Below, piece after piece: positions 43,369 through 55,133 of a stretch of DNA of 64,000 bases (the stretch's first letter is position 1; each line of letters starts with the position of its first letter). The stretch covers positions 620,001-684,000 of the forward strand of contig NZ_JRAA01000002.1 in NCBI RefSeq assembly GCF_000787395.1, in the 5' to 3' direction. The notes under the pieces were generated by a model, which had not been told where the DNA came from, ran no database searches, and saw only the letters and a list, made by a program, of their open reading frames with translations. The stretch is from Solemya velum gill symbiont (GTDB lineage Bacteria > Pseudomonadota > Gammaproteobacteria > Chromatiales > Chromatiaceae). The translations under genes and the position numbers were made by a program.

Positions 43369-45225
43369 ATGCTTCCTGAAAAAAATTCCGCTGCATCAGC
43401 AGCAAATATCAAAATTGAAGAAACTCAGGCGACTGAGCAACCGTCTGACACGGACATCACTGTAACCGACAAGTCATCACAAGATAATCTCCCTGATACG
43501 CAAGCATCAGAGAAGAAGGACGCGATCGATTCACCGATCAGTATCCCCGCTTCAGAACCTGGTGAAGTCGAAGGAACTACATCCACAGCAGTTGAAAGTG
43601 ACACTGATGATGTACCTACAAATCAAGACTTGATCGATACAGCCCTTCAGACCATTGAACGCGCTCTGGACAAGGCACCTGATGACAGTGTTGTGGTATT
43701 CGAGGGCCCGGTCATCGGTTCAATGGCCACACTGCGTCAACTCAGCATGGCGAATTATCAAAATTGTCGTGCCAAGTTCAAAAAGGCAAACAAGGCAATC
43801 TCCGTTTTGGCCATTGACCATGAAGTCGAACAATTTCTTCAGCAAACTGAGCTACCTAGTACCCATCATGCTTTTGCCAGTGCACTGATTCAATCACAGA
43901 CATTCGATGGCCATGCACCTGTCAGCCATAACGGACAACTGTATGCGTTCGATCCCATCTCGGGAATGTGGAAACCGATCACTGTGGATCATCTTGCACG
44001 TCGGGCTGCAGAAAGGTTCGACGGTCGCAAAAACTGCGATCGGACCAATGATTACAAGAATATCGCTGAGCATGCCATTACGCTGACTGCAGATCCTGAG
44101 TTCTTCGATAATGCCCCTGTTGGTCTGGCATGCCCTGACGGCTTCATCAGCATACAAGATGGTCAGGTCGTAACCCAGCTACTGACAGCCGATCATCGCC
44201 AACGTGTCCAGATCGACTTCACACCCACAGAAATTCCGACACCCCAGTTTGACGAATTTCTCGATGAGACATTTCAGTCCGATGTTCCAAATGAGAAAGA
44301 TCAGCAAATCACTCTGCTTCAAGAAGTTGTCGGTGCATTGATGCTTGGCATTGCCCACCGGTATCAGAAGGCCATAATTTTCTATGATCCATTTGGTCGT
44401 GCCGGCAAGGGTACACTCGAACGATGCATACGTGAACTGGTCCCGAAGGAATATGTCACGGCAATCTCTCCATTCAACTGGGGAAAGGAATATTACCTGG
44501 CCTCTCTTGCGGGTTCGCGTCTCAATGTGGTCGGTGAATTAACTGAACAGGACTCGATTCCATCGGCGGCATTCAAAACCGTGACGGGTGGTGACTTGCT
44601 CACCGGCAGGCATCCAAATCATCGTACGATTACGTTTAAGAATGAAGCGGGCCACCTGTTCATGTCGAATCACCTGATCAACACACGTGATCACAGTGAG
44701 GCTTTTTATACCCGATGGCTGATCATTGAGTTCCCTAACAGCAGATTGCGATCTGGCCTTCCGATTGACCCATCCCTGGCAGATAACATCATCAAGAGTG
44801 AGATGCCCGGTATCGCACACTGGGCGCTTCAGGGAGCGATGCGTTTGCTGGATCGACAAGCCTACTCCGGTTCGATTGCCCATGACCGTTTGATGGCCAA
44901 ATGGCGTCACACGGCCAACTCTCTTGAGGAGTTCATTCATGAAGAGTGTGAACTCGGCGACATGTCACTTTACGTTAAACGTTCAGACCTCTATAGCGAT
45001 TATAGCGACTGGTGCAAGGAGAATGGGCGCAAGCCATTTGCCAAAGGCAAGGTCAGGGAACTGCTTGAGCACAATATCGGTTTGGGTATCACGCACAGCA
45101 CCCTGAACGGCTATGAGGTGTTCCGTGGTGTCCGCATGAAGGAGGAGCCTGAACAGACTCGATACAACGCGCCACAGGCCAACACAGGCGATTCTGATAC
45201 CGACGTAGATGATTTTGACTTCTAA
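43369..45225 (+). CDS. D5/P4-family primase-helicase (SF3) of the island
   Basis: 618 residues. An acidic, low-complexity N terminus (1-95) is followed by a D5_N-like region (about 130-290) and an SF3 helicase (about 290-480) with Walker A-like FYDPFGRAGKGTLERC, the NVVGEL acidic motif and a sensor HLFMSNHLIN. The C-terminal ~130 residues form a winged-helix-like DNA-binding part (YSDYSDWCKENGRKPFAKGK). The catalytic primase (Toprim or AEP) signature is not evident, so helicase alone is the safer call. It lies between the 14-bp repeats and upstream of the integrase, the usual place in P4-like elements. Confidence 0.88.
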   Translation: MLPEKNSAASAANIKIEETQATEQPSDTDITVTDKSSQDNLPDTQASEKKDAIDSPISIPASEPGEVEGTTSTAVESDTDDVPTNQDLIDTALQTIERALDKAPDDSVVVFEGPVIGSMATLRQLSMANYQNCRAKFKKANKAISVLAIDHEVEQFLQQTELPSTHHAFASALIQSQTFDGHAPVSHNGQLYAFDPISGMWKPITVDHLARRAAERFDGRKNCDRTNDYKNIAEHAITLTADPEFFDNAPVGLACPDGFISIQDGQVVTQLLTADHRQRVQIDFTPTEIPTPQFDEFLDETFQSDVPNEKDQQITLLQEVVGALMLGIAHRYQKAIIFYDPFGRAGKGTLERCIRELVPKEYVTAISPFNWGKEYYLASLAGSRLNVVGELTEQDSIPSAAFKTVTGGDLLTGRHPNHRTITFKNEAGHLFMSNHLINTRDHSEAFYTRWLIIEFPNSRLRSGLPIDPSLADNIIKSEMPGIAHWALQGAMRLLDRQAYSGSIAHDRLMAKWRHTANSLEEFIHEECELGDMSLYVKRSDLYSDYSDWCKENGRKPFAKGKVRELLEHNIGLGITHSTLNGYEVFRGVRMKEEPEQTRYNAPQANTGDSDTDVDDFDF

Positions 45226-45282
45226 GTGACAGCAAGTGTCTCCGTACCTATCCCGACAGACCGCATTCGACCCCAAGTGGGG

Positions 45283-45296
45283 AAAGTGGGTTTTTC
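45283..45296 (+). repeat. 14-bp direct repeat flanking the primase gene, right copy
   Basis: Same AAAGTGGGTTTTTC 14-mer as 42980-42993. A CCCCAAGTGGGG palindrome partly overlaps it at 45271-45282. Confidence 0.7.
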
Positions 45297-45428
45297 GGGG
45301 TGGGCCGGGGTCCTGCAACCGGTAGACATACCGTGATTCTTATCTGGCCGGAGAGCGATATTTTCGACAGCCCCAGGCCCGATAAAAAATCCACCTTTAC
45401 CACTTCAATTTCCTGAAAGGAGAACAAT

Positions 45429-46607
45429 ATGAAGATAGACCTGACCCAGGACATGATCGATCAAGGCTTAACTTGTCCTGTTGGTAAAAGAAAAATTGAA
45501 TACTGCGATGCAAAGGAGGTGCCCGGGCTCTATGTACTCGTGACCTCAAGTGCATCCGCAAATTCTTCGTACTACCTGCGCTGGAAGCAGCACGGCAAGA
45601 CGAAACATACACGGATTGCACGCGTGACCGATATTACCCTGGCAGAGGCACGTTCAAGAGCTTTGACATTGCGCAGAGAGATTGCCACCGGAAATTTAAC
45701 GGAAGAGCGGGAGCAGAAACGCAAGCAGCAGATGACGTATTCCGATCTGTTTGAGGAGTATGTGACCTACAAGCGCCCTTTCAAACGATCCATCGGCAAG
45801 GACATTCAGTTCTACAACCTGCGCATCAAGGCAAGGTTTGGATCACGCTTGTTATCAAGCATCTCCCGCCATGACTTGCAGAAATTCCAGGCAGACCTGA
45901 TCAAGGAGGAATTGTCAGAGGCGACTGCCGATTTGTATTTGAGGCTCCTCAAGCACTCCATGTCTTTGGCTGAGCAATGGGAGTACATCGAGAAGTCACC
46001 AGGAAAAGGCCTGAAGTTGTTCAATCCCGACAACGCGGTGGAAAATCACCTCAGCAAGGAAGAACTGAAGCGCCTTGTAGATGTCTTGATGAGTGATGAG
46101 AATCGACCCGTCTGCCAGATTGTGCTTTGGTTGCTTTCAACAGGGGCCAGGCTTAATGAGGCGCTAAAGGCCCGTTGGGAGCATATCGACAGGAATAAGC
46201 GCCAATGGACCATTCCTGCCACAAATGCGAAGTCAAAGCGTTCGAGAGTAGTACCCCTCAATGACACCGCGATGGGTATTCTTGAACAGCTTGAGACCGA
46301 GGGTCAGCATGAAACCCTGTGGGTCAATGCCAAAACCGGTAAGCGATACACCACGATCCAGAAAGTCTGGCAAAGATTGAGATTGAAAGCAGGCCTGCCC
46401 CACTTCCGGCTTCATGATGCGCGCCACAGCTTCGCAGCAATGGTCGCCAATGATGGAACGACTTCGCTCTATGCTATCGGTACACTGCTTGGACACAAGT
46501 CGAATGTCAGTACCCGCCGGTATGCAAAATACTCAAGTGACACCCTGCAATCGATATCGAATCATGCCTCGGATGTGATTCAGGATGCCATGAACGGCGA
46601 CACCTGA
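45429..46607 (+). CDS. int: Tyrosine recombinase/integrase of the island
   Basis: 392-residue phage-type integrase. An N-terminal arm-binding domain (1-85; PGLYVLVTSSASANSSYYLR), a core-binding SAM-like domain (about 90-190), and the catalytic domain with Arg in STGARLNEALKARW, Lys in NAKSKRSRVVPL, HDARHSF (H-x-x-R) and the nucleophile Tyr in STRRYAKYSSDTL. It looks intact and probably acts on the tRNA-Asn att site 350 nt downstream. GAAAGGAG precedes the ATG. Confidence 0.95.
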   Translation: MKIDLTQDMIDQGLTCPVGKRKIEYCDAKEVPGLYVLVTSSASANSSYYLRWKQHGKTKHTRIARVTDITLAEARSRALTLRREIATGNLTEEREQKRKQQMTYSDLFEEYVTYKRPFKRSIGKDIQFYNLRIKARFGSRLLSSISRHDLQKFQADLIKEELSEATADLYLRLLKHSMSLAEQWEYIEKSPGKGLKLFNPDNAVENHLSKEELKRLVDVLMSDENRPVCQIVLWLLSTGARLNEALKARWEHIDRNKRQWTIPATNAKSKRSRVVPLNDTAMGILEQLETEGQHETLWVNAKTGKRYTTIQKVWQRLRLKAGLPHFRLHDARHSFAAMVANDGTTSLYAIGTLLGHKSNVSTRRYAKYSSDTLQSISNHASDVIQDAMNGDT

Positions 46608-46954
46608 AAACTGCACACAGGATCAGAAGCAAGGATGCTTCATGGTCCACCTCCGCCACTCTCCAGGACATTCGGCGTCTGGCTTAGGGGTGATCATGGA
46701 GTGGTACGGATCGCGTCACACTGGAGCAGACGGGGGCAATTCCCGGCTGCCGCGCAGATCGCTCAATGTTCGCTTTTCGGTTCGTGTGGAGAAAAAAGCA
46801 AGTCGTTGTTCTTGTTCTGTTTTTCAAAATACCTCGGTAGAAATCAAAATCGAAAGTTCGATATAGGTTCGTTTATGTCTAACCGCCATGACCGCATCGG
46901 AAAACCAATCAAAATTCTTCAACTTACTGGTACCGTCTGCGACTGTATCGGGTT
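46608..46954. other. Spacer between integrase and attR
   Basis: 347 nt, no credible gene or excisionase. It contains short A-rich repeats (AAATCAAAATCGAAAGTTCGATATAG) listed here as positions 46841-46866 that could be integrase arm sites, but nothing definite. Confidence 0.45.
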
Positions 46955-47042
46955 CTGTTAATCACTAGGTCGGCAGTTCGAGCCTGTCCCGGGGAGCCAT
47001 ATTAAAAAGGCCCACAGATTTGATCTGCGGGCCTTTTTTCTT
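46955..47042 (+). repeat. attR: right 88-bp direct repeat (tRNA-Asn 3' part and terminator)
   Basis: Copy of 35376-35463. It holds the tRNA 3' half from the anticodon loop onward, CCA, and the terminator stem. It is not a whole tRNA gene. Confidence 0.93.
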
Positions 47043-47055
47043 ATCTGGTTCATAC

Positions 47056-47690
47056 TCAAATATAGACTCTCACTCCCTTGGCCCTCATGGTTTTAACAAA
47101 CAGGAGCAGTATCAACAAAAACTCCAGCACTGCGACGACCTGCCAAAACTTCAGGGGGTTTCGCTGCATAAGGGGCTGGGCCTCTTTTTTGATCAGGCGC
47201 TGGTTCGGCTTGGTAAGATCGCTGACAAATTCAGACAGAAGTGTGTAGCTCTTTGCCGGATTGGGATCAACTGCTTTCCTGATTGCATTATCAATCCACT
47301 CAGGCACGGAACTGTTGTGCTCACTGGCCGGTGTATAGTTGAAGCGCTTCTTATCTGCAAACTGTGGAGTGACCTCCCCGTATGGCAGTTTTCCGGTCAG
47401 CATTTCGTAAGCAATAACTCCCAGTGAAAAAATATCGGAACGATTAGTCCCGCTTTCGCCCTTGAAATATTCAGGTGCAGAATAGTTCGCAGTGCCAAGG
47501 ATATGTGCATGCTCAACTGGCGTCTTGATTTCGGCCAGGCCGGCAATCCGGGCTGATCCAAAATCAATGATCTTCAACGTGTTATTCCGGTCGATCAGGA
47601 AATTTGGTGTGTCATCTCCATTCGGTGCATCGCCCGCAGCCCCCTTGCCACATGGTGGTGCACTCGTTTTGTAGCACTTGACGCACCAAC
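47056..47690 (-). pseudogene. Ser/Thr protein kinase remnant lacking the catalytic loop
   Basis: C-terminal kinase part with NFLIDRNNTLKIIDFGSARIAG (DFG), the APE-like SAPEYFKGE, DIFSLGVIAYEMLTGKLPY and a C-terminal membrane helix (VVAVLEFLLILLLFVKT). Just upstream the homologous alpha-E helix reads VARGLRAMHRMEMTHQ in another frame; the HxDxxPxN catalytic loop between THQ and NFLID is missing, through a short deletion that also shifts the frame. The 5' half (phosphatase/N-lobe) is gone. In Pseudomonas such kinase-phosphatase fusions sit in the nas/nir nitrate cluster, as this one does. Not functional as a kinase. Confidence 0.85.
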
Positions 47691-47714
47691 TTTTATGCAA
47701 GCGCAAATTAGCTC

Positions 47715-47729
47715 GCACTAATATTGTGC
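47715..47729. promoter_or_regulatory. Probable NtrC-binding site
   Basis: GCACTAATATTGTGC fits the NtrC pattern GCAC-N7-GTGC exactly in spacing. It lies about 70 nt upstream of a sigma-54-like promoter, the usual enhancer distance. Confidence 0.7.
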
Positions 47730-47783
47730 GCTTATACATGGGTCATAAGGTTACTTCGTTATAAGCCCCCTGTTAATAGATGT

Positions 47784-47799
47784 TGGCATGGATGCTGCA
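47784..47799 (+). promoter_or_regulatory. Sigma-54 (RpoN) promoter of nirB
   Basis: TGGCATGGATGCTGCA: GG and GC are exactly ten bases apart (-24/-12), matching TGGCACG-N4-TTGCA with two mismatches. Predicted start near 47810, 44 nt before the nirB ATG. This would place nitrate assimilation under NtrC nitrogen control. Confidence 0.78.
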
Positions 47800-47853: not shown

Positions 47854-50289
47854 ATGAAAGAGAATCTCGTATTAATCGGTAACGGCATGGCTGGCATGCG
47901 CACAATCGAAGAGTTACTGAAACTGGCACCGGAAAAGTACAACATCACTGTTTTCGGTGAGGAGCCATACGGTAACTACAACCGCATCATGCTCTCCCCC
48001 GTACTCGCCAATGAAAAAACCATTGACGAGATCATGCTCAATGATGAGCAGTGGTACAAAGATAATGGCATTGGCTTACTGAAAGGTATCGAGGCGACCG
48101 AGATTGATCGGGTTAATCGCGATGTCGTCGGCTCCGATGGCACACGCGTTCCCTATGACAGACTGATCATTGCAACGGGCTCCACGTCATTCATGCTGCC
48201 ACTACCGGGCGCCGATAAATATGGTGTGATCGGTTTTCGTGATATTGTCGATGTCGACACCATGGTCGAGGCCTCACAACAGTTCAAAAAAGCCGTCGTG
48301 ATCGGTGGTGGCCTGCTTGGCCTTGAGGCTGCAAATGGCCTCATGAAACAGGGCATGGACGTCACGGTAGTTCACCTGATGGATTCCCTCATGGAGCGCC
48401 AGCTCGACAAGCCAGCAGCTGCAATGCTGAAAAAATCACTTGAAGAGCGCGGCATGAATTTCCTGCTGGAACATGTCACGGACGAAATCCTCGATGAAGA
48501 GCGTGTCACTGGCCTTCGTTTCAAGAATGGTGAAGAGATCGATACTGACCTGGTCGTCATGGCCGTCGGTATCAAGCCCAACTTCACACTGGCGCAGGAG
48601 TCCGGTCTCCATTGTGAGCGTGGCATCGTCGTCAATGACACCATGCAGACTTTTGATCCGAACATCTATGCAGTTGGCGAGTGTGTTCAGCATCGTGGCA
48701 CGACCTATGGACTGGTTGCACCCCTGTTTGAACAGGCCAAAGTAGCAGCTAATCATCTCGCCGAGTACGGCATTGGTCGCTACGAGGGCACTGTCACATC
48801 AACCAAGTTAAAAGTGACAGGCATTGATCTTTTCTCGGCAGGCGATTTTACCGGTGATGAGACAACCGACGAACTGGTATTTCAGGACAAGGCCACCGGC
48901 ACCTACAAGAAACTGATCGTCAAGGACAACCGCATCCTCGGCAGTGTCCTCTACGGTGACACGGTCGACGGCACCTGGTACTTCCAGTTGATGAAGGAAG
49001 GCACTGATATATCGGCATTCCGTAACACCATCCTGTTTGGCCAGGCACACCTGGGTGACTCCGGTCATGGCGAAGAGACACGTGTTGCCGCGATGCCGGA
49101 TGATGCCGAAATCTGTGGCTGTAACGGCGTCTGCAAGGGCAATATTGTCAAGGCAATTACCGACGACAAACTCTTCACATTGGATGATGTTCGTTCACAT
49201 ACCAAGGCATCAGCCTCCTGTGGTTCCTGTACCGGTCTGGTTGAGTCCCTGCTTGCGCATACAGTCGGCGGAGATTACGAGGAAGCACCCAGCAAAAAAC
49301 CCATGTGTGGCTGTACCAGTCATACGCACGAGGAGGTACGCAAGGGCATCTTTGAGCAGGAATTGAAAACCATGGATGCTGTTCGCAGTTATTTTGGCTG
49401 GACAACACCCGATGGCTGTCCGGCCTGTCGAAATGCCCTGAACTATTACCTGCTGAGCTCATGGCCAATTGATTACCAGGATGACCCGCAGTCACGTTTC
49501 ATTAACGAGCGTGCTCACGGCAACATCCAGAAAGACGGCACCTACTCGGTTGTACCTCGCATGTTCGGTGGCCTCTGCACGCCTTCAGACCTGCGCACAA
49601 TTGCAGACGTTGCAGACAAATACGAGGTGCCGGAGATGAAAGTGACCGGCGGTCAGCGAATCGATATGTTCGGCGTCAAAAAGGAGAACCTGCCGGATAT
49701 GTGGAAGGACCTGACGGATGCAGGTTTTGTCTCCGGCCACGCTTATGGCAAGGCAATGCGAACAGTAAAAACCTGTGTCGGTGATACCTGGTGCCGTTTC
49801 GGCACACAGAACTCAACCGGGCTGGGTGTCAAACTCGAAGAACTCACCTGGGGCTCATGGATGCCTCATAAGTTCAAACTGGCTGTCTCCGGCTGTCCGC
49901 GCAACTGTGCCGAGGCCACGATCAAGGACTTCGGAGTTGTCTGCGTTGATTCGGGATATGAACTCCATATCGGTGGTAACGGAGGTATCAAGGTGCGTGT
50001 TACCGATCTGCTCTGCAAGGTTGAAACTGAAGAGGAAGTGCTTGAGTACTGTGGAGCCTTCTGCCAACTCTATCGTGAAGATGCTCACTACCTGGAGCGC
50101 ACTGCCCCCTGGGTTGAACGTGTCGGTCTTGCAAAGGTCAAGGAAGCGGTTGTTGACGATGCAGAACAACGTAAAGCACTTTACGAGCGCTTCAAAATAT
50201 CCCAGGTGGAGCCTCAGAAGGACCCCTGGAAGAATGTCGCTGATGGCAACAACACTGAAGAATTCACGCCAATCAAGTTGGCTGGCTAA
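47854..50289 (+). CDS. nirB: Assimilatory nitrite reductase, large subunit
   Basis: 811-residue flavo-siroheme enzyme reducing nitrite to ammonium with NAD(P)H. N-terminal FAD/NAD(P) domain (LVLIGNGMAGMRTIEELL; AVVIGGGLLGLEAANGL), a BFD-like [2Fe-2S] region (CGCNGVCKGNIVKAI from Cys421; ASCGSCTGLVE), a second cysteine-rich linker (MCGCTS), and the siroheme half with Cys641-X5-Cys647 and Cys681-X3-Cys685, the four ligands of the siroheme-bridged [4Fe-4S] cluster. Length is slightly shorter than E. coli NirB. Ribosome site GAGGAG. Confidence 0.97.
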   Translation: MKENLVLIGNGMAGMRTIEELLKLAPEKYNITVFGEEPYGNYNRIMLSPVLANEKTIDEIMLNDEQWYKDNGIGLLKGIEATEIDRVNRDVVGSDGTRVPYDRLIIATGSTSFMLPLPGADKYGVIGFRDIVDVDTMVEASQQFKKAVVIGGGLLGLEAANGLMKQGMDVTVVHLMDSLMERQLDKPAAAMLKKSLEERGMNFLLEHVTDEILDEERVTGLRFKNGEEIDTDLVVMAVGIKPNFTLAQESGLHCERGIVVNDTMQTFDPNIYAVGECVQHRGTTYGLVAPLFEQAKVAANHLAEYGIGRYEGTVTSTKLKVTGIDLFSAGDFTGDETTDELVFQDKATGTYKKLIVKDNRILGSVLYGDTVDGTWYFQLMKEGTDISAFRNTILFGQAHLGDSGHGEETRVAAMPDDAEICGCNGVCKGNIVKAITDDKLFTLDDVRSHTKASASCGSCTGLVESLLAHTVGGDYEEAPSKKPMCGCTSHTHEEVRKGIFEQELKTMDAVRSYFGWTTPDGCPACRNALNYYLLSSWPIDYQDDPQSRFINERAHGNIQKDGTYSVVPRMFGGLCTPSDLRTIADVADKYEVPEMKVTGGQRIDMFGVKKENLPDMWKDLTDAGFVSGHAYGKAMRTVKTCVGDTWCRFGTQNSTGLGVKLEELTWGSWMPHKFKLAVSGCPRNCAEATIKDFGVVCVDSGYELHIGGNGGIKVRVTDLLCKVETEEEVLEYCGAFCQLYREDAHYLERTAPWVERVGLAKVKEAVVDDAEQRKALYERFKISQVEPQKDPWKNVADGNNTEEFTPIKLAG

Positions 50290-50313: not shown

Positions 50314-50628
50314 ATGAATGACTGGACAGCAATTACAAAACTCAACGATATCCCGAAACTCGGTTCACGAATCGTCAGGACTGATAGTGTCGATATCGCA
50401 ATCTTTCGTACCAGCGATGACCAGGTCTTTGCCATCAGGGATGCCTGCCCGCACAAGAATGGGCCTCTTTCGCAGGGAATCGTGCACGGCACCAGTGTCA
50501 CCTGCCCGCTGCATAACTGGAAAATCGATCTTGCCAGCGGTGAAGCACTTGGTGCGGACTCGGGGTGCACCAACACCTACGAGGCCAAGATAGAAAACGA
50601 AACAGTCTATCTGCGCAGCCCAGGGTAA
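50314..50628 (+). CDS. nirD: Nitrite reductase small subunit (Rieske-type)
   Basis: 104-residue Rieske-fold partner of NirB. Here the cluster ligands are present: CPHKNGPLSQG and CPLHNWKIDL (C-x-H...C-x2-H), as in ferredoxin-type NirD variants; E. coli NirD lacks some of these. 24 nt after nirB and 4 nt before the nitrate reductase gene, so one operon. Confidence 0.95.
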   Translation: MNDWTAITKLNDIPKLGSRIVRTDSVDIAIFRTSDDQVFAIRDACPHKNGPLSQGIVHGTSVTCPLHNWKIDLASGEALGADSGCTNTYEAKIENETVYLRSPG

Positions 50629-50632
50629 TCTC

Positions 50633-52837
50633 ATGCTCTTTGGTAGAGGAAAGAAGAATCCTGTCAAGATGGCAGACAAGGGTGTCGTCGAGTGGAAGTA
50701 CGCCACTTGCGGCTACTGCTCGACAGGCTGTTCAATTGAGGTTGGTCTCGACCAGGCAGGCACACCGGTAGCTTCCCGCGGTGTTGGCGGCGCTGATGTC
50801 AACCGTGGAAAATTGTGCCTCAAAGGGCTGTTCGAACACGAGCTGTTTGAATCGGCAGGCCGCGGTAAAGAGCCACTGATGCGTAATCACTACCACGAAA
50901 ACTGGCAAACAACTGACTGGGATACTGCTCTAGACAAGGTTCACGATGGCATCCGCGAGGTGCAGGAGAAGTATGGCAGGGACTCTGTCGCCATTATTTC
51001 GACAGGCCAGATGCTCACCGAGGAGTTCTACACACTCGGCAAGTTGACTCGTGGACTCATCGGCACCAACAACTATGACGGCAATACAACCCTTTGCATG
51101 TCATCCGCTGTCTCCGGTTACAAACGCTCGTTCGGCTCTGACGGCCCTCCCGGATGTTACGAGGATTTCGAGCATACCGACTGCCTCATCGCCTGGGGCT
51201 CGAACCTGCCTGAACAGCATCCAATCATCTATTGGCGTCTCAAGGAGGCGATGGAAAAACGCGACTTCCCGCTGATCGTGGTCGACCCGCGTGTCACCAT
51301 GCTGGCGCAGAACGCGGACATGCATCTCACCATTACACCGGGAACAGACGTTGTACTGCAGAATGCACTCATGCACGTCATCCTCAAGGAGGGGCTCGAA
51401 GACAGGGACTATATCGATGCGAATACCAATGGCATCGAGGAGCTTGAAGCGGAAGTTGCCAACTATGATCCGGTCACCGCATCGAAAATCTGCGGTATCG
51501 ACGAGGACACTATCCAGAATGTAGCACGCCTGTTTGCGAAAGCCGGCGCTGCCATGCAGATCTGGACCATGGGCATCAACCAGAGCACACATGGCTCTGA
51601 TGGAGTGGTTGGTATCAACAACCTCGCCCTGATTACCGGCAATATCGGCAAGCCCGGCGGCACCAGTCTCTCCATTACCGGACAGTGCAACGCCATGGGA
51701 ACGCGCGAGTGGTCGTCTTGCTCAGGGCTGCCAAATTACAGGCTGCTGGAAAACCCACAAGACCGTGAAGATGTCGCAAAATTCTGGAATGTTGATCCCG
51801 AGTTCTTTCCGAAGAAGCGCGGCCTCTACCAGACTGATATCTACCCTGCGATTGAGACCGGCCAGATCAAGGGACTGTGGCTGATTGCTACCAACCCGAT
51901 GAGTTCGCTGCCGAATACGGCACGCGTTCGCAAGGCGATGGAGAAACTTGAATTCTGTGTTGTGCAGGACTGCTACGAGGACACTGAAAGTGCCCAGTAT
52001 GCACACATCTACCTGCCTGCCGGGACATGGGCGGAGAAAGAGGGCGTCATGACCAATACAGAGCGTCGTGTCAATGTCGTCAAACCGGTCACCAGGCCAC
52101 ACGGAAACTCCAAACCCGACTTGTGGATCTTTAACCAGGTCGCTAAACGCTTTAACAAGGAAGGAAAAGTCACCTTCCCTGATGCAGCCCCGGATATTTT
52201 CCTTGAGATGGGAGAGCTCTCGAAAGGCCGTCTTGCCGATATTTCAGGTATGACGCATGAGAAAATCGAGCACAACCGCGGCATCCAGTGGCCCTACACC
52301 GATCAGCAGGCCAATCGTGGTGAAGCACCGCCAAAAGGCGGGAAGCGTCTCTATACAGAAGATGCAACCTTTCGATACCCGGACGGTAAGGCCAAGCTGA
52401 TCCCCCTGCCCTTCATAGACAACAATGAAGTGCCTGATGAGAAATTTCCCTTCTGGCTTAATACCGGGCGCCTGATCGAGCACTGGCATGGTCGCACCAA
52501 GACCGGAAAACTTGGTAACAACAACAAGTACAGCCCGATCCCCTTTATCGAACTCAACCCTGATGCGGCTGCTGATCTTGGCATCAAGTCGGGTGAATAT
52601 GTTCGCCTTGTATCACGCCGCTCTGATGCCATTGTCATGGCACAACTGACACAGCGGGTTGCCAAGAACATGATCTTTCTGCCATTCCATTTCCATGACT
52701 GCGCCAACCGCCTGACGCTAGGTCTGCTCGACCCGCATTCACGGCAACCGGCATACAAACAGTCTGCGGTGCGTATCGAACGTATCAAGGATCAGAAAGC
52801 TGCGGCAAAACTGAGTATGGAAATGCGGAAATTCTGA
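50633..52837 (+). CDS. nasA: Cytoplasmic molybdopterin nitrate reductase (NasA/NarB type)
   Basis: 734-residue Mo-bis-MGD oxidoreductase reducing nitrate to nitrite. An N-terminal [4Fe-4S] motif is formed by Cys26, Cys29, Cys33 and Cys62. The molybdenum ligand is Cys in GNTTLCMSSAV, as in assimilatory and periplasmic nitrate reductases. GMGTREW-type MGD region and the C-terminal domain (NTGRLIEHWHGRTKTG) are typical. There is no Tat signal, so it is cytoplasmic. The flavin/BFD extension of long NasA forms is absent, which agrees with electrons coming from the next gene's product. The name NarB is equally usable. Confidence 0.93.
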   Translation: MLFGRGKKNPVKMADKGVVEWKYATCGYCSTGCSIEVGLDQAGTPVASRGVGGADVNRGKLCLKGLFEHELFESAGRGKEPLMRNHYHENWQTTDWDTALDKVHDGIREVQEKYGRDSVAIISTGQMLTEEFYTLGKLTRGLIGTNNYDGNTTLCMSSAVSGYKRSFGSDGPPGCYEDFEHTDCLIAWGSNLPEQHPIIYWRLKEAMEKRDFPLIVVDPRVTMLAQNADMHLTITPGTDVVLQNALMHVILKEGLEDRDYIDANTNGIEELEAEVANYDPVTASKICGIDEDTIQNVARLFAKAGAAMQIWTMGINQSTHGSDGVVGINNLALITGNIGKPGGTSLSITGQCNAMGTREWSSCSGLPNYRLLENPQDREDVAKFWNVDPEFFPKKRGLYQTDIYPAIETGQIKGLWLIATNPMSSLPNTARVRKAMEKLEFCVVQDCYEDTESAQYAHIYLPAGTWAEKEGVMTNTERRVNVVKPVTRPHGNSKPDLWIFNQVAKRFNKEGKVTFPDAAPDIFLEMGELSKGRLADISGMTHEKIEHNRGIQWPYTDQQANRGEAPPKGGKRLYTEDATFRYPDGKAKLIPLPFIDNNEVPDEKFPFWLNTGRLIEHWHGRTKTGKLGNNNKYSPIPFIELNPDAAADLGIKSGEYVRLVSRRSDAIVMAQLTQRVAKNMIFLPFHFHDCANRLTLGLLDPHSRQPAYKQSAVRIERIKDQKAAAKLSMEMRKF

Positions 52838-52838
52838 C

Positions 52839-54740
52839 ATGTATAAAGTAAGAAGCGATGAACCACAGCACGAGTTTCTGTGGGATAAAGAGACGAAATC
52901 ACATAACCGTTACGGTAAATCTATCGACACCGTTGCGGATAATACCGATCTGCGTGAAGAAAGCCTGCAGATTAATGGTGAGGAAGCCGTTGGTGATAAT
53001 CCGAACCGTTACAAACAGCATGGCTTCTTTTTCACTGCTGACAACTGCATCGGCTGTCATGCCTGTGAGGCAGCCTGTAGCGAGAAAAATGACAACCCGG
53101 CACATATTGCATTTCGTTCGGTCGGCTTTGTTGAGGGTGGTAGCTTTCCAGATTACCAGCGCATCAATATTTCGATGGCCTGTAATCACTGTGACGACCC
53201 GGTCTGCCTGAAGGGGTGTCCGACGCGTGCCTATACAAAGTTCGCCGAGTATGGCGCCGTATTGCAGGACCCGGACATCTGTTTCGGATGTGGCTACTGT
53301 ACATGGGTGTGTCCCTACAATGCCCCGCAACTGGATCCTGTAAAGGGACAGGTATCCAAGTGCAACATGTGCGTAGACCGCCTCGAAGTGGGACTCAAAC
53401 CGGCATGCGCTGCAGCCTGCCTGGGTAACGCGCTTGATTTTGGCGTAATTGAGAATATTCCAGAGCATCGAACACAGGCAAAAACCGAGATCCCCGGTTT
53501 TCCACGCACAGATATCACAAATCCGAACATCCGCTTCCAGCAGACGAAAACGACGCATCGAGTCATGTCGCGCGTCGACTCGATGCCACTCAAATATCAA
53601 CGTGATGATGCCGAGGGAAAGTTCGAACCGGTCGTCGACAAGAAACACGGTGAAACTAAGTCATGGGGCTGGAGCAAGCTGCTGCATTCACATGAAAATG
53701 CACATGTTATTTTCACCCTCAGCGTGCAGGCCGTGATGGGCATGTTCCTGTGGCTGGTGATCGCTCCACTGGTGGAATCATTCACCGCCGGCAGTGCTAT
53801 TTCATCGATTCACTCATCAATAGCACAGCTACCGTTGATGCTGGTGATGCTACTGATGATGGCTTTCGGCCTCTACAAGCTAAATATGCACCTTGGCAAA
53901 CCACACCGCTTCTACCGTGGCTTCAATAACCTGCGCCATTCACCGGTCAGCCGAGAGATCGCCGGTGTATCGCTCTTCTTTGCAAGCCTTGTCGGCTATG
54001 CCCTCTTTGCTGTTGTCGACATCCCCTACGGTGATCTTGTTTCACAGCTGTTTGCAGTAACTGGAATGATCGGATTCCTGGCGGGCTCCTGGTACATGTA
54101 CAGGCTCTACCGCATTCCTGCACGACCCTTCTGGGATCATTGGCAGACGGCAACCGGTTTCTACGGCACCATGCTGAGCCTGGGAGGCACACTCTTGTTG
54201 CTGGTAACTGCCTTGAGCGGTGGTGCAACCTCGCAGTTCATCACGCTGGTAGCCATTGGAATTGCTGCCGGTCTCATGCTGGAAGGCATCGGTCTCTATG
54301 CACATAGCAAGTACCTTGCTGCCACTTCAAACGAAGGTGCAGCTGCCCATTACACGCAGACGACCGAATTCGGTTACAGCTATCTGCTACGCAACCTGCT
54401 GCTTGGCCTCAACCTGCTGATAGCAGTGGCAATCGCTGCCACGGGCTCATTGCCACTGTTTTCGCTTATTGGCCTTGTAACCTTGGTAGTGATGGCATAC
54501 ACCGGGCGTATTCTCTTTTATGCGCTGGTGATCCCGACAACCATGCCCGGCGCATTCTTCTGGAAGAACAAGGGATTTGTCGAACATGCGCGTGAATCAG
54601 GACTCGCAGATATGCAACAACTCGGTGTTGCCTATGAACGCCACCACAAGTTCCGTCTCGATGAACTGGTCCAGACCATCAGGGAGACCAGTATCAAAGA
54701 CATGGGAGCACATGTTGCCCGTGTCGTCACAGGCCGCTAG
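52839..54740 (+). CDS. Fused four-cluster ferredoxin and DmsC-like quinol-oxidising anchor
   Basis: 633 residues joining two usually separate subunits. Residues ~60-225 carry DmsB/NrfC-like motifs CIGCHACEAAC, CNHCDDPVCLKGC, CFGCGYCTWVC and CNMC...CAAAC for four [4Fe-4S] clusters. From about 285 to 570 there are eight hydrophobic helices like DmsC/PsrC anchors (ENAHVIFTLSVQAVMGMFLW at the first). There is no Tat signal, so the ferredoxin part faces the cytoplasm with the nitrate reductase. It starts 1 nt after that gene's stop. Probable role: carry electrons from the quinol pool to NasA; inferred from architecture and position. Confidence 0.88.
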   Translation: MYKVRSDEPQHEFLWDKETKSHNRYGKSIDTVADNTDLREESLQINGEEAVGDNPNRYKQHGFFFTADNCIGCHACEAACSEKNDNPAHIAFRSVGFVEGGSFPDYQRINISMACNHCDDPVCLKGCPTRAYTKFAEYGAVLQDPDICFGCGYCTWVCPYNAPQLDPVKGQVSKCNMCVDRLEVGLKPACAAACLGNALDFGVIENIPEHRTQAKTEIPGFPRTDITNPNIRFQQTKTTHRVMSRVDSMPLKYQRDDAEGKFEPVVDKKHGETKSWGWSKLLHSHENAHVIFTLSVQAVMGMFLWLVIAPLVESFTAGSAISSIHSSIAQLPLMLVMLLMMAFGLYKLNMHLGKPHRFYRGFNNLRHSPVSREIAGVSLFFASLVGYALFAVVDIPYGDLVSQLFAVTGMIGFLAGSWYMYRLYRIPARPFWDHWQTATGFYGTMLSLGGTLLLLVTALSGGATSQFITLVAIGIAAGLMLEGIGLYAHSKYLAATSNEGAAAHYTQTTEFGYSYLLRNLLLGLNLLIAVAIAATGSLPLFSLIGLVTLVVMAYTGRILFYALVIPTTMPGAFFWKNKGFVEHARESGLADMQQLGVAYERHHKFRLDELVQTIRETSIKDMGAHVARVVTGR

Positions 54741-54751
54741 GAGAAATCAGT

Positions 54752-55090
54752 ATGATGCAAATTAACGGAAAAGAGATCCCGCTTGATAATGAAGGCTACC
54801 TGCTGGACCCAAAGGACTGGAACCAGGATGTTGCTGAACAACTGGCCCGGACACTTGAAATAGAGATGACCGATGACCATTGGTTTGTAGTCAAATATGT
54901 TCGTGATCATTACGACCTGACAACCTGCATCCCGGAAACACGCCATGCTCTCAAAGAGATGAAAAATACTCTTGGTAAAGAGCGGGCTACCAGGAAGTAT
55001 CTCTACTCCCTCTTCCCTTATGGCTATGGGCAAATGGCCTGCAAGATCGCAGGCATGCGCAAACCACTGAAACTGTTACTCGATTTATAA
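54752..55090 (+). CDS. DsrC/TusE-family protein with only the upstream cysteine
   Basis: 112-residue DsrC-fold protein (INGKEIPLDNEGYLLDPKDW; WFVVKYVRDHYDLTTCIPE; LFPYGYGQMACKIAGMRKP). The cysteine in MACKIAG corresponds to CysB of DsrC, while the C-terminal arm ends KPLKLLLDL without the usual CysA. Thus it has the opposite single cysteine to the protein at 2657. A further Cys lies in LTTCIPE. AGGAG precedes the ATG. It ends the nirB-nirD-nasA-anchor operon, so a role in that reductase's assembly or redox regulation is plausible but unproven. Confidence 0.85.
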   Translation: MMQINGKEIPLDNEGYLLDPKDWNQDVAEQLARTLEIEMTDDHWFVVKYVRDHYDLTTCIPETRHALKEMKNTLGKERATRKYLYSLFPYGYGQMACKIAGMRKPLKLLLDL

Positions 55091-55101
55091 CAGCACGAAA
55101 G

Positions 55102-55133
55102 AAAAGGCCCGCAAACAAATCTGCGGGCCTTTT
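55102..55133 (+). terminator. Terminator of the nitrate assimilation operon
   Basis: Twelve-bp stem AAAAGGCCCGCA/TGCGGGCCTTTT with an 8-nt loop. Confidence 0.95.

Follow-up and report, generated by a model that had tools for sequence, protein, structure and literature searches.

What donates electrons to an assimilatory nitrate reductase whose gene is directly followed by a gene for a membrane anchor? In textbook assimilatory nitrate reductases the donor is NAD(P)H, ferredoxin or flavodoxin. The question is raised by a locus in the Solemya velum gill symbiont (contig NZ_JRAA01000002.1), contained in a stretch of 64,000 nucleotides that was analysed as a whole and is here called the window. 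The original prediction described an assimilatory-type reductase followed by a single 633-aa protein that combines DmsB-like and DmsC-like parts. Both open reading frames were found exactly where they had been placed and their Pfam domains agree, which confirms that the pair is real. On the best reading of the evidence, the two proteins make up an assimilatory quinol:nitrate oxidoreductase in which known modules are combined in a new way.

The locus and its operon

The genes are arranged in the order nirB-nirD-nas734-BC. The first gene, nirB (47854..50289, + strand), encodes the 811-aa large subunit of NADH-dependent siroheme nitrite reductase (TIGR02374, 953.5 bits against a cut-off of 578.35), and nirD (50314..50628, + strand) encodes the 104-aa small subunit (TIGR02378, 106.9 bits against 74.65). 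The third encodes Nas734 (50633..52837, + strand), a molybdopterin protein of 734 aa that was assigned as the catalytic subunit of a cytoplasmic nitrate reductase from Pfam, active-site alignment and a tree. The open reading frame of the 633-aa fusion, BC (52839..54740, + strand), lies 1 base away. A DsrC/TusE-family gene (54752..55090, + strand; PF04358, 121.4 bits) is a putative member and probably the last gene of the operon, and a terminator-like hairpin with a T-run, read by eye from the sequence (55107..55133, + strand), possibly marks the end of the transcription unit. At one related locus (L119) a DsrC-like match 10 kb away was treated as unrelated.

Upstream of the operon, tblastn with the genes of three relatives identified the C-terminal remnant of a PP2C/Ser-Thr kinase gene (47056..47672, - strand). 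In relatives the intact gene sits beyond narK. The same searches found neither narK nor the PP2C part in the window, and no NarK was found in the whole genome, which does encode an NrtCD-type ATPase above the curated cut-off. Nitrate transporter genes adjoin the Nas734-BC pair in many relatives. Among the 47 loci with 7 kb of upstream sequence, nirB was found in 38; at L111 it is located behind BC.

The catalytic subunit

Nas734 contains the Pfam domains Molybdopterin, Molydop_binding and Molybdop_Fe4S4, and a Pfam search found no C-terminal BFD domain. The N-terminal 4Fe-4S cysteines are C26, C29, C33 and C62, and the Mo ligand C155 is followed by M156. Cys155-Met156, Gln126, Asp170 and the TGQ...Arg358-Glu motif are shared with NasA and NapA by all 21 Nas734 sequences, and we take the roles of these residues to be those assigned in NapA. 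The signature differs in the three Fdh sequences aligned (3/3). In the tree, built from the window and 20 of 80 related loci (L137, with two stops, and L034, the same as L061, were left out), all 21 sequences form a separate clade with support of 100/100 and a long stem of 1.49. This clade lies outside canonical NasA and joins NasA and NapA at a weak support of 80/57, with long branches flagged.

Several other identities were considered and rejected. Among PDB structures, a periplasmic nitrate reductase gives the best match (2jim, 420 bits), but Nas734 falls in another clade than NapA and carries no Tat-like motif. Formate dehydrogenase was rejected from the active site, where Cys-Met stands in place of the Cys/Sec-His of Fdh; the score also stays below the TIGR01591 cut-off. 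Enzymes acting on DMSO or sulfite were rejected from the active site and the tree. The narG model gives 46.3 bits against a cut-off of 1084.15.

Could the complex act on another substrate, such as sulfite, formate or another oxyanion, and stand in a nir operon by chance? The scores fall short of every NCBIfam equivalog cut-off for nitrate reductases (NasC, 485.6 of 1100; haloarchaeal NasA, 466.5 of 1000), and the top score is that of the Fdh-alpha model TIGR01591 (551.2 bits, cut-off 666.25). These models do not discriminate, however, because canonical NasA behaves likewise: TIGR01591 is also its top score, and it misses the same two cut-offs. The active-site signature and the tree group Nas734 with NasA and NapA, and its gene occupies the position that nasA has in a nirB-nirD-nasA operon of Azospirillum. 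Action on another substrate is thus barely credible, and nitrate reduction is retained as the reading of Nas734.

Does Nas734 replace canonical NasA? A comparison of NasA-like proteins used 34 of the 80 loci. Among the NasA-like matches listed, Nas734 itself ranks first in 28 of these 34 genomes, and canonical NasA is also present in at least 5 of them, including the genome of the search query, so the roles of the two enzymes may overlap. For the four Cycloclasticus genomes compared (G065, G074, G080 and G087), the matches listed include no canonical NasA. No second NasA was found in the window's own genome. One genome (G059) also carries a 35-residue fragment that is 60% identical to the C-terminal end of canonical NasA.

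The fused membrane partner

BC is composed of a four-cluster DmsB-like domain (residues ~58-210), an eight-helix DmsC/NrfD-like module (287-563) and a conserved C-terminal tail. Pfam places Fer4_11 at residues 112-203 and DmsC (PF04976) at 285-563 (67.8 bits, cut-off 22.3), and the DmsB model TIGR02951 scores 159.1 bits, short of its equivalog cut-off of 214.1. In an alignment of 53 BC sequences (from the window and 52 of the 80 related loci; L109 was excluded for an internal stop), all 16 cluster cysteines, His351 and Glu373 are invariant. The last two align with His65 and Glu87 of E. coli DmsC. Replacement of His65 in DmsC is reported in a review to block quinol oxidation (PMC8076601).

Structure prediction gives the NrfD-like module an eight-helix fold that carries the conserved His/Glu residues of the quinol site. 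By VIA-align this predicted anchor matches ActC (Z 21.8) and PsrC (Z 17.2); cytochrome bd chains match it as strongly as PsrC (Z 17-19), and the fold is therefore not enough to identify the anchor family. Foldseek found no match to the BC model at E 0.001 or better, and the model of the Fe-S domain is poor, with pLDDT below 50 for residues 41-95 and 112-211. BC would bind and oxidise quinol, as its conserved residues suggest. The original claim that quinol rather than NADH or ferredoxin is the donor thus gains support from the invariant cysteines and quinol-site residues and from the 28 of 34 genomes noted above; the surrounding genes likewise favour quinol.

A different role for BC would be that of a mere tether or extra input, with ferredoxin or NADH as the true donor by way of another protein, as in canonical NarB or NasA. 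Nas734 is similar to NarB in size, and a NirB-like FAD reductase gene lies immediately behind BC in three of the 80 loci (L063, L071 and L085). That reductase may instead serve canonical NasA, since a canonical NasA gene comes next in L063 and L085 and is found on a different contig in the genome of L071. A tether would also not need the 16 cysteines and the quinol-site residues that are conserved throughout. A tethering role is therefore highly improbable, and BC is treated below as the putative electron donor of Nas734.

Cellular location and orientation

Both proteins had been expected to face the cytoplasm. No Tat-like motif was found in the first 60 residues of any of 21 Nas734 or 53 BC sequences. 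The motif was found in all four exported controls (the NapA and Fdh of the same genome, the latter read from an internal start, S. meliloti NapA and E. coli DmsA) and in neither of two cytoplasmic-type controls. The loops of BC carry 7-11 K+R on the Fe-S side and 0-2 on the opposite side in 53/53 sequences. The corresponding counts are 3 against 6 for E. coli DmsC and 9 against 1 for the SoeC of the window's genome, with one SoeC loop empty in the alignment. Loop charges thus put the Fe-S domain of BC in the cytoplasm in all 53 sequences, an orientation predicted to be inverted relative to DmsC and like that of SoeC. Both results support the expected location.

Distribution of the pair

In 369 genomes of the class Gammaproteobacteria, Nas734 was found in 62, BC in 60 and both in 59, which belong to 39 families; three proteins of 37-40% identity (G158, G045 and G243) were excluded from the Nas734 count. 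The original prediction called for a survey of the fusion beside nasA-type genes. Such a survey placed 58 of 61 BC copies behind Nas734 on the same strand within 0.8 kb, with gaps of at most 182 bases in 55 copies and of 268, 656 and 796 bases in three. The arrangement is beyond chance. Of 71 loci scored by a script, 69 have Nas734 ahead of BC, and the remaining two (L094 and L118) are start-codon artefacts. Among the 62 genomes with Nas734, one (G356, 93% complete) has no BC behind it, and none was found in the rest of that genome. Because the collections overlap (L061 is G042 and L122 is G020), the 80 loci cannot be treated as independent of the 369 genomes.

The pair is widespread but patchy within the class, and the wiring is not as uncommon as first proposed. 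In the window's own family, 4 of 34 genomes have a full-length BC. Named carriers include methanotrophs, sulfur oxidisers, tubeworm symbionts and Cycloclasticus. An origin from a virus or plasmid was rejected: viral contigs gave 107 pattern matches, no relative being encoded at any of them, and no plasmid record contains 80% of the query at a single location.

Nitrogen control or respiration?

Two candidate regulatory sites precede nirB in the window. One is a palindrome, GCAC-N7-GTGC (47715..47729, no strand assigned), which we take to be an NtrC-like motif. The other is a sigma-54 (-24/-12) type promoter (47784..47799, + strand) that agrees with 9 of 11 positions of the consensus assumed for scoring. 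Across 41 loci, in which nirB starts were placed approximately by motif search, the palindrome is present upstream of nirB in 18, where random stretches of these loci would lead one to expect 0.56. A sigma-54 site of at least 9/11 is present in 32 of 41 loci and in 2% of random stretches. FNR boxes upstream of nirB show no excess over shuffles. These sites suggest that the operon is under nitrogen control, not respiratory control. Together with the nirBD operon and the transporter genes that adjoin the pair in many relatives, they strengthen the assimilatory role proposed at the outset.

Quinol-linked modules are typical of respiratory enzymes, and the pair might accordingly be a respiratory enzyme or redox valve that dumps quinol electrons on nitrate, the ammonium made by NirBD being a by-product (cytoplasmic DNRA). 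In a paper on Thiomargarita (PMC4914600), nirBD is described as serving both the assimilatory and the dissimilatory pathway, which would fit such a role. The promoter sites and the lack of FNR enrichment argue against it. In addition, the window's genome encodes Nap in a separate gene cluster (a name based on its appearance and on the tree position of NapA), and the pair occurs in genomes of Methylococcales and Cycloclasticus, which are aerobic groups. A respiratory function is improbable, and assimilation is the purpose considered below.

Proposed mechanism

Nas734-BC is probably a quinol:nitrate oxidoreductase that faces the cytoplasm and is dedicated to assimilating nitrogen. Under nitrogen limitation the operon would be turned on by sigma-54 and NtrC, as the promoter sites suggest. 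The DmsC-like module of BC would oxidise ubiquinol on its cytoplasmic side, a step proposed from the conserved residues. Electrons would then pass through the four [4Fe-4S] clusters of the N-terminal domain of BC and the single [4Fe-4S] cluster of Nas734 to the Mo centre, where nitrate would be reduced to nitrite in the cytoplasm. This nitrite would be converted to ammonium, with NADH, by the NirBD that the operon also encodes. Nas734 and BC would assemble into one complex, their reaction would presumably be electroneutral, quinol would be the donor, and no soluble donor would be able to stand in for BC. If the quinol pool supplied the first two electrons, reducing power would be saved in chemolithotrophs and methanotrophs because NADH is costly in these organisms, and feeding nitrate assimilation with quinol would thus probably be of physiological benefit.

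A bolder reading holds that the pair represents an undescribed, widespread class of nitrate reductase in which assimilation is a branch of the respiratory chain, and that the NrfD-type anchor may also move protons. This is unlikely; if it were true, assimilating nitrate would contribute to the proton-motive force and not only consume reducing power.

Comparison with known systems

Like NasA, NasC and NarB, Nas734 has an N-terminal 4Fe-4S cluster, the same active-site signature and no Tat-like motif, and it is encoded beside nirBD. It differs from them in its long-stem clade, in the absence of the BFD domain and in its partner, which is a membrane quinol module and not an NAD(P)H reductase, flavodoxin or ferredoxin. 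The Fe-S and anchor modules of BC are related to those of DmsABC (DmsB, 159 bits; DmsC, 67.8 bits), with His65/Glu87 conserved. In contrast to DmsABC, whose catalytic and Fe-S subunits are periplasmic and Tat-exported, the two parts are joined in one chain, the charge-predicted orientation is inverted, neither Nas734 nor BC has a Tat-like motif, and the catalytic subunit belongs to another branch.

SoeABC is a molybdoenzyme on an NrfD/DmsC-type anchor that faces the cytoplasm and transfers electrons from sulfite to quinone. The SoeC of the window's genome shares the predicted charge orientation of BC. However, SoeABC has separate B and C proteins, and the genome's own SoeA (named by appearance) lacks the nitrate-reductase signature and falls outside Nas734 in the tree. 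Anchors of the PsrABC/NrfD family share the predicted fold of BC but are separate chains and serve other substrates.

NarGHI is a cytoplasmic quinol:nitrate oxidoreductase that is used for assimilation in some mycobacteria. It differs from the pair in its haem-b NarI, where BC has a DmsC-like anchor, and the narG score of Nas734 is far below the cut-off. In M. smegmatis, narGHJI is reported to be dispensable, and assimilatory use of NarGHI was not found in the passages covered of that study (PMC7816997). No description of a NasA with a fused DmsB-DmsC partner was found in the accessible portions of the open-access literature, including PMC10100899, PMC4914600, PMC8076601, PMC9455678, PMC4013037 and PMC5728499.

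Many marine sulfur- and methane-oxidisers appear to draw the electrons for nitrate assimilation from the membrane respiratory pool and not from soluble carriers. If anatomy equals function, quinol would meet the cost of the first step in assimilating nitrate in about one sixth of the genomes sampled from the class (59/369). For organisms that must make NADH by reverse electron flow, this would alter what nitrogen uptake costs in energy. Genome papers naming just nasA may miss the membrane half of the enzyme.

Operon Organization

The gene for the cytoplasmic-type nitrate reductase Nas734, nas734 (50633-52837), lies on the forward strand among tightly spaced genes of the same strand. It is preceded by nirB (47854-50289) and nirD (50314-50628), both above their NCBIfam cut-offs, and is followed by the gene for the fusion protein BC (52839-54740) and by a DsrC/TusE-family gene (54752-55090), downstream of which a hairpin with a T-run can be read from the sequence (55107-55133). 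The genome is 2.70 Mb in size with a completeness of 99.74%, and the window corresponds to G000:C3:620001-684000. The original prediction of one 633-aa protein behind the reductase, combining DmsB-like clusters with a DmsC-like anchor, was borne out. BC is a single open frame. After an N-terminal extension, the protein has a DmsB-like domain with four clusters, which a linker joins to a DmsC-like module of eight helices, and it ends in a conserved tail.

The DsrC/TusE-family gene is probably the last of the operon in the window. Its product keeps a cysteine near the C-terminus and lacks the penultimate one of the genome's main DsrC. Seven DsrC-family matches were found in the genome, including the operon copy. 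Related genes (31-35% identity) adjoin BC in four more loci, behind it in L088, L096 and L125 and on the opposite strand in L080. Such a gene beside BC is possibly a link to sulfur metabolism.

Distribution and Gene Neighborhood

A scan of genome contigs gave at least 572 BC relatives among the matches listed, many of which could in principle be other DmsB-like proteins. The best 80 of these (58-70% identity) come from Methylococcales, Thiotrichaceae, Cycloclasticus, Sedimenticola, vent tubeworm symbionts, Thioglobus and others. Of these loci, 71 extend 300 bases or more upstream of BC. Scripted scoring found Nas734 there in 69, and the remaining two (L094 and L118) also show it once the BC start is taken from tblastn. 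Among 47 loci with 7 kb upstream, nirB was present in 38, a NarK-type transporter in 25 and a PP2C/kinase gene in 24.

Across 369 genomes of the class Gammaproteobacteria, Nas734 was found in 62 (excluding three more rows at 37-40% identity), BC in 60 and both in 59, over 39 families. The proposed survey for the fusion beside a nas-type gene placed 58 of 61 BC copies no more than 0.8 kb behind Nas734. Four genomes were mismatched: G134, G339 and G253 stop at a contig edge, and G356 has Nas734 with no BC behind it. Both genes lie near contig starts in G252. In G048 they are unlinked, with Nas734 on contig C24 and BC on contig C32, yet both are kept. The distribution of BC is patchy, with a full-length copy in 4 of 34 genomes of the window's own family.

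Two nirB lineages, one 66-83% identical to that of the window and the other 36-38% (Methylococcales, Cycloclasticus and others), occur upstream of the same Nas734-BC pair in loci L055-L133, which suggests an exchange of the nitrite reductase. In L068 (by Pfam), L083 and L091 (by appearance), a PhzF-like gene of 302-306 aa lies inside the operon just before nas734. Of the 65 loci that extend 1.5 kb downstream, at least 14 have RavA-like (AAA ATPase) and ViaA-like (VWA protein) genes behind BC. Also behind BC are mobB in L121 and a gene resembling mobA by appearance in some loci.

The Catalytic Subunit

The nearest solved sequence to Nas734 is the periplasmic nitrate reductase 2jim (420 bits) of Desulfovibrio desulfuricans. 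Nas734 falls below every NCBIfam equivalog cut-off, and a canonical NasA, the usual type of assimilatory nitrate reductase, falls below the same ones. In a tree of 37 catalytic subunits, which included NapA, Fdh and SoeA of the same genome, the 21 Nas734 rows formed one clade (support 100/100). This clade grouped with canonical NasA and NapA (80/57), apart from formate dehydrogenases, with long branches flagged and the exact sister not resolved. Cys155-Met156, Gln126, Asp170 and the TGQ...Arg358-Glu segment are present in 21/21 Nas734 proteins and are the same in NasA and NapA, whereas these active-site positions hold Cys-His or Cys-Gln, Lys and RG...D in the Fdh rows (3/3). SoeA and DmsA also deviate.

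For 34 of the 80 loci, the genome was searched for canonical NasA. It was present (56-100% identity) in five, including the genome that supplied the query; a 41% match lies within a 1392-aa frame in G072. The best match was Nas734 itself in 28 of the 34. A second NasA was not found in the window's genome, where the other matches are by appearance NapA, Fdh, SoeA and NuoG. In L061 (on the same contig as L034) the gene order is nirB-nirD-nasA-nas734-BC with a canonical nasA. In L063 and L085 a NirB-like FAD reductase and then canonical NasA lie behind BC, and L071 has the FAD reductase without NasA inside the stretch examined.

The Membrane Partner and Its Orientation

The 16 cluster cysteines of BC are all invariant among 53 aligned proteins, taken from 52 of the 80 loci and from the window. 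Two further invariant residues, His351 and Glu373, correspond in the alignment to His65 and Glu87 of E. coli DmsC. A review states that replacement of His65 in DmsC blocks quinol oxidation (PMC8076601). The AlphaFold model (mean pLDDT 64.6) shows eight membrane helices with good confidence; its Fe-S domain is poorly predicted. VIA-align matched the predicted anchor to ActC (Z 21.8) and PsrC (Z 17.2); cytochrome bd chains also scored 17-19, and Foldseek with predicted BC returned nothing at E 0.001.

In all 53 proteins, there are 7-11 Lys+Arg (mean 8.9) in the loops of the Fe-S side versus 0-2 (mean 0.87) in those of the opposite side. The equivalent loops have 3 versus 6 in E. coli DmsC and 3 versus 7 in a plasmid DmsC, whereas SoeC of the same genome has 9 versus 1, with one loop empty in the alignment. 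By the positive-inside rule, BC is thus predicted to be inverted relative to DmsC and placed like SoeC, with its Fe-S domain facing the cytoplasm. The cytoplasmic side had originally been proposed from the lack of Tat signals; no Tat-like motif occurs in the 21 Nas734 or 53 BC proteins, and the loop charges agree in 53/53.

Regulation and Nitrate Transport

The DNA upstream of nirB was scanned for promoter motifs in 40 loci and in the window (41 regions), with random stretches of the same loci and shuffles as controls. The best sigma-54 match reached at least 9 of 11 consensus positions in 32/41 regions, compared with 2% of random stretches and about 1% of shuffled sequences, and at least 8 in 38/41, compared with 12% of random stretches. 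The distance to nirB is 54-103 bases for 32 of these 38 matches. Within the operon, a match of at least 9 precedes nas734 in 3/41. The palindrome GCAC-N7-GTGC occurs in 18/41 nirB upstream regions (0.56 expected) and a stricter form in 10/41 (0.08 expected); FNR boxes showed no enrichment there. The window has a sigma-54-type site at 47784-47799 and a palindrome of this type at 47715-47729.

Within 43369-47739, a kinase remnant (47056-47672) lies next to genes for a primase and a tyrosine integrase. In relatives this place is occupied by narK and a PP2C/kinase gene, which run divergently from nirB. The window lacks narK and the PP2C part, and NarK was not found in the whole genome. An ABC transporter cluster at G000:C4:218600-222200 (L159, L156) could replace NarK. 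Its ATPase is of the NrtCD type (352 bits, cut-off 291.8), and its binding protein falls below all curated cut-offs.

A Probable Quinol-Linked Assimilatory Nitrate Reductase

Each module of Nas734-BC is already known. No description of the BC fusion, of its inverted orientation or of such a protein paired with a catalytic subunit of the Nas type was found in the open-access literature, covered mostly as titles and abstracts. In the portions covered, a Thiomargarita paper (PMC4914600) and a Thiothrix paper give the nasA gene without a partner, and a large survey of the DMSO reductase superfamily handles NasC/NasA/NarB as one family.

The quinol site presumably lies on the Fe-S side, as in PsrC and its kin. 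Since that side is here predicted to be cytoplasmic, quinol would be oxidized and nitrate reduced on the same side of the membrane, and the simplest reaction would be electroneutral. The NrfD-type module might also move protons. For many of these bacteria NADH is costly, and their quinone is presumably ubiquinone. Taken together, the results support the prediction that Nas734-BC is an assimilatory quinol:nitrate oxidoreductase.
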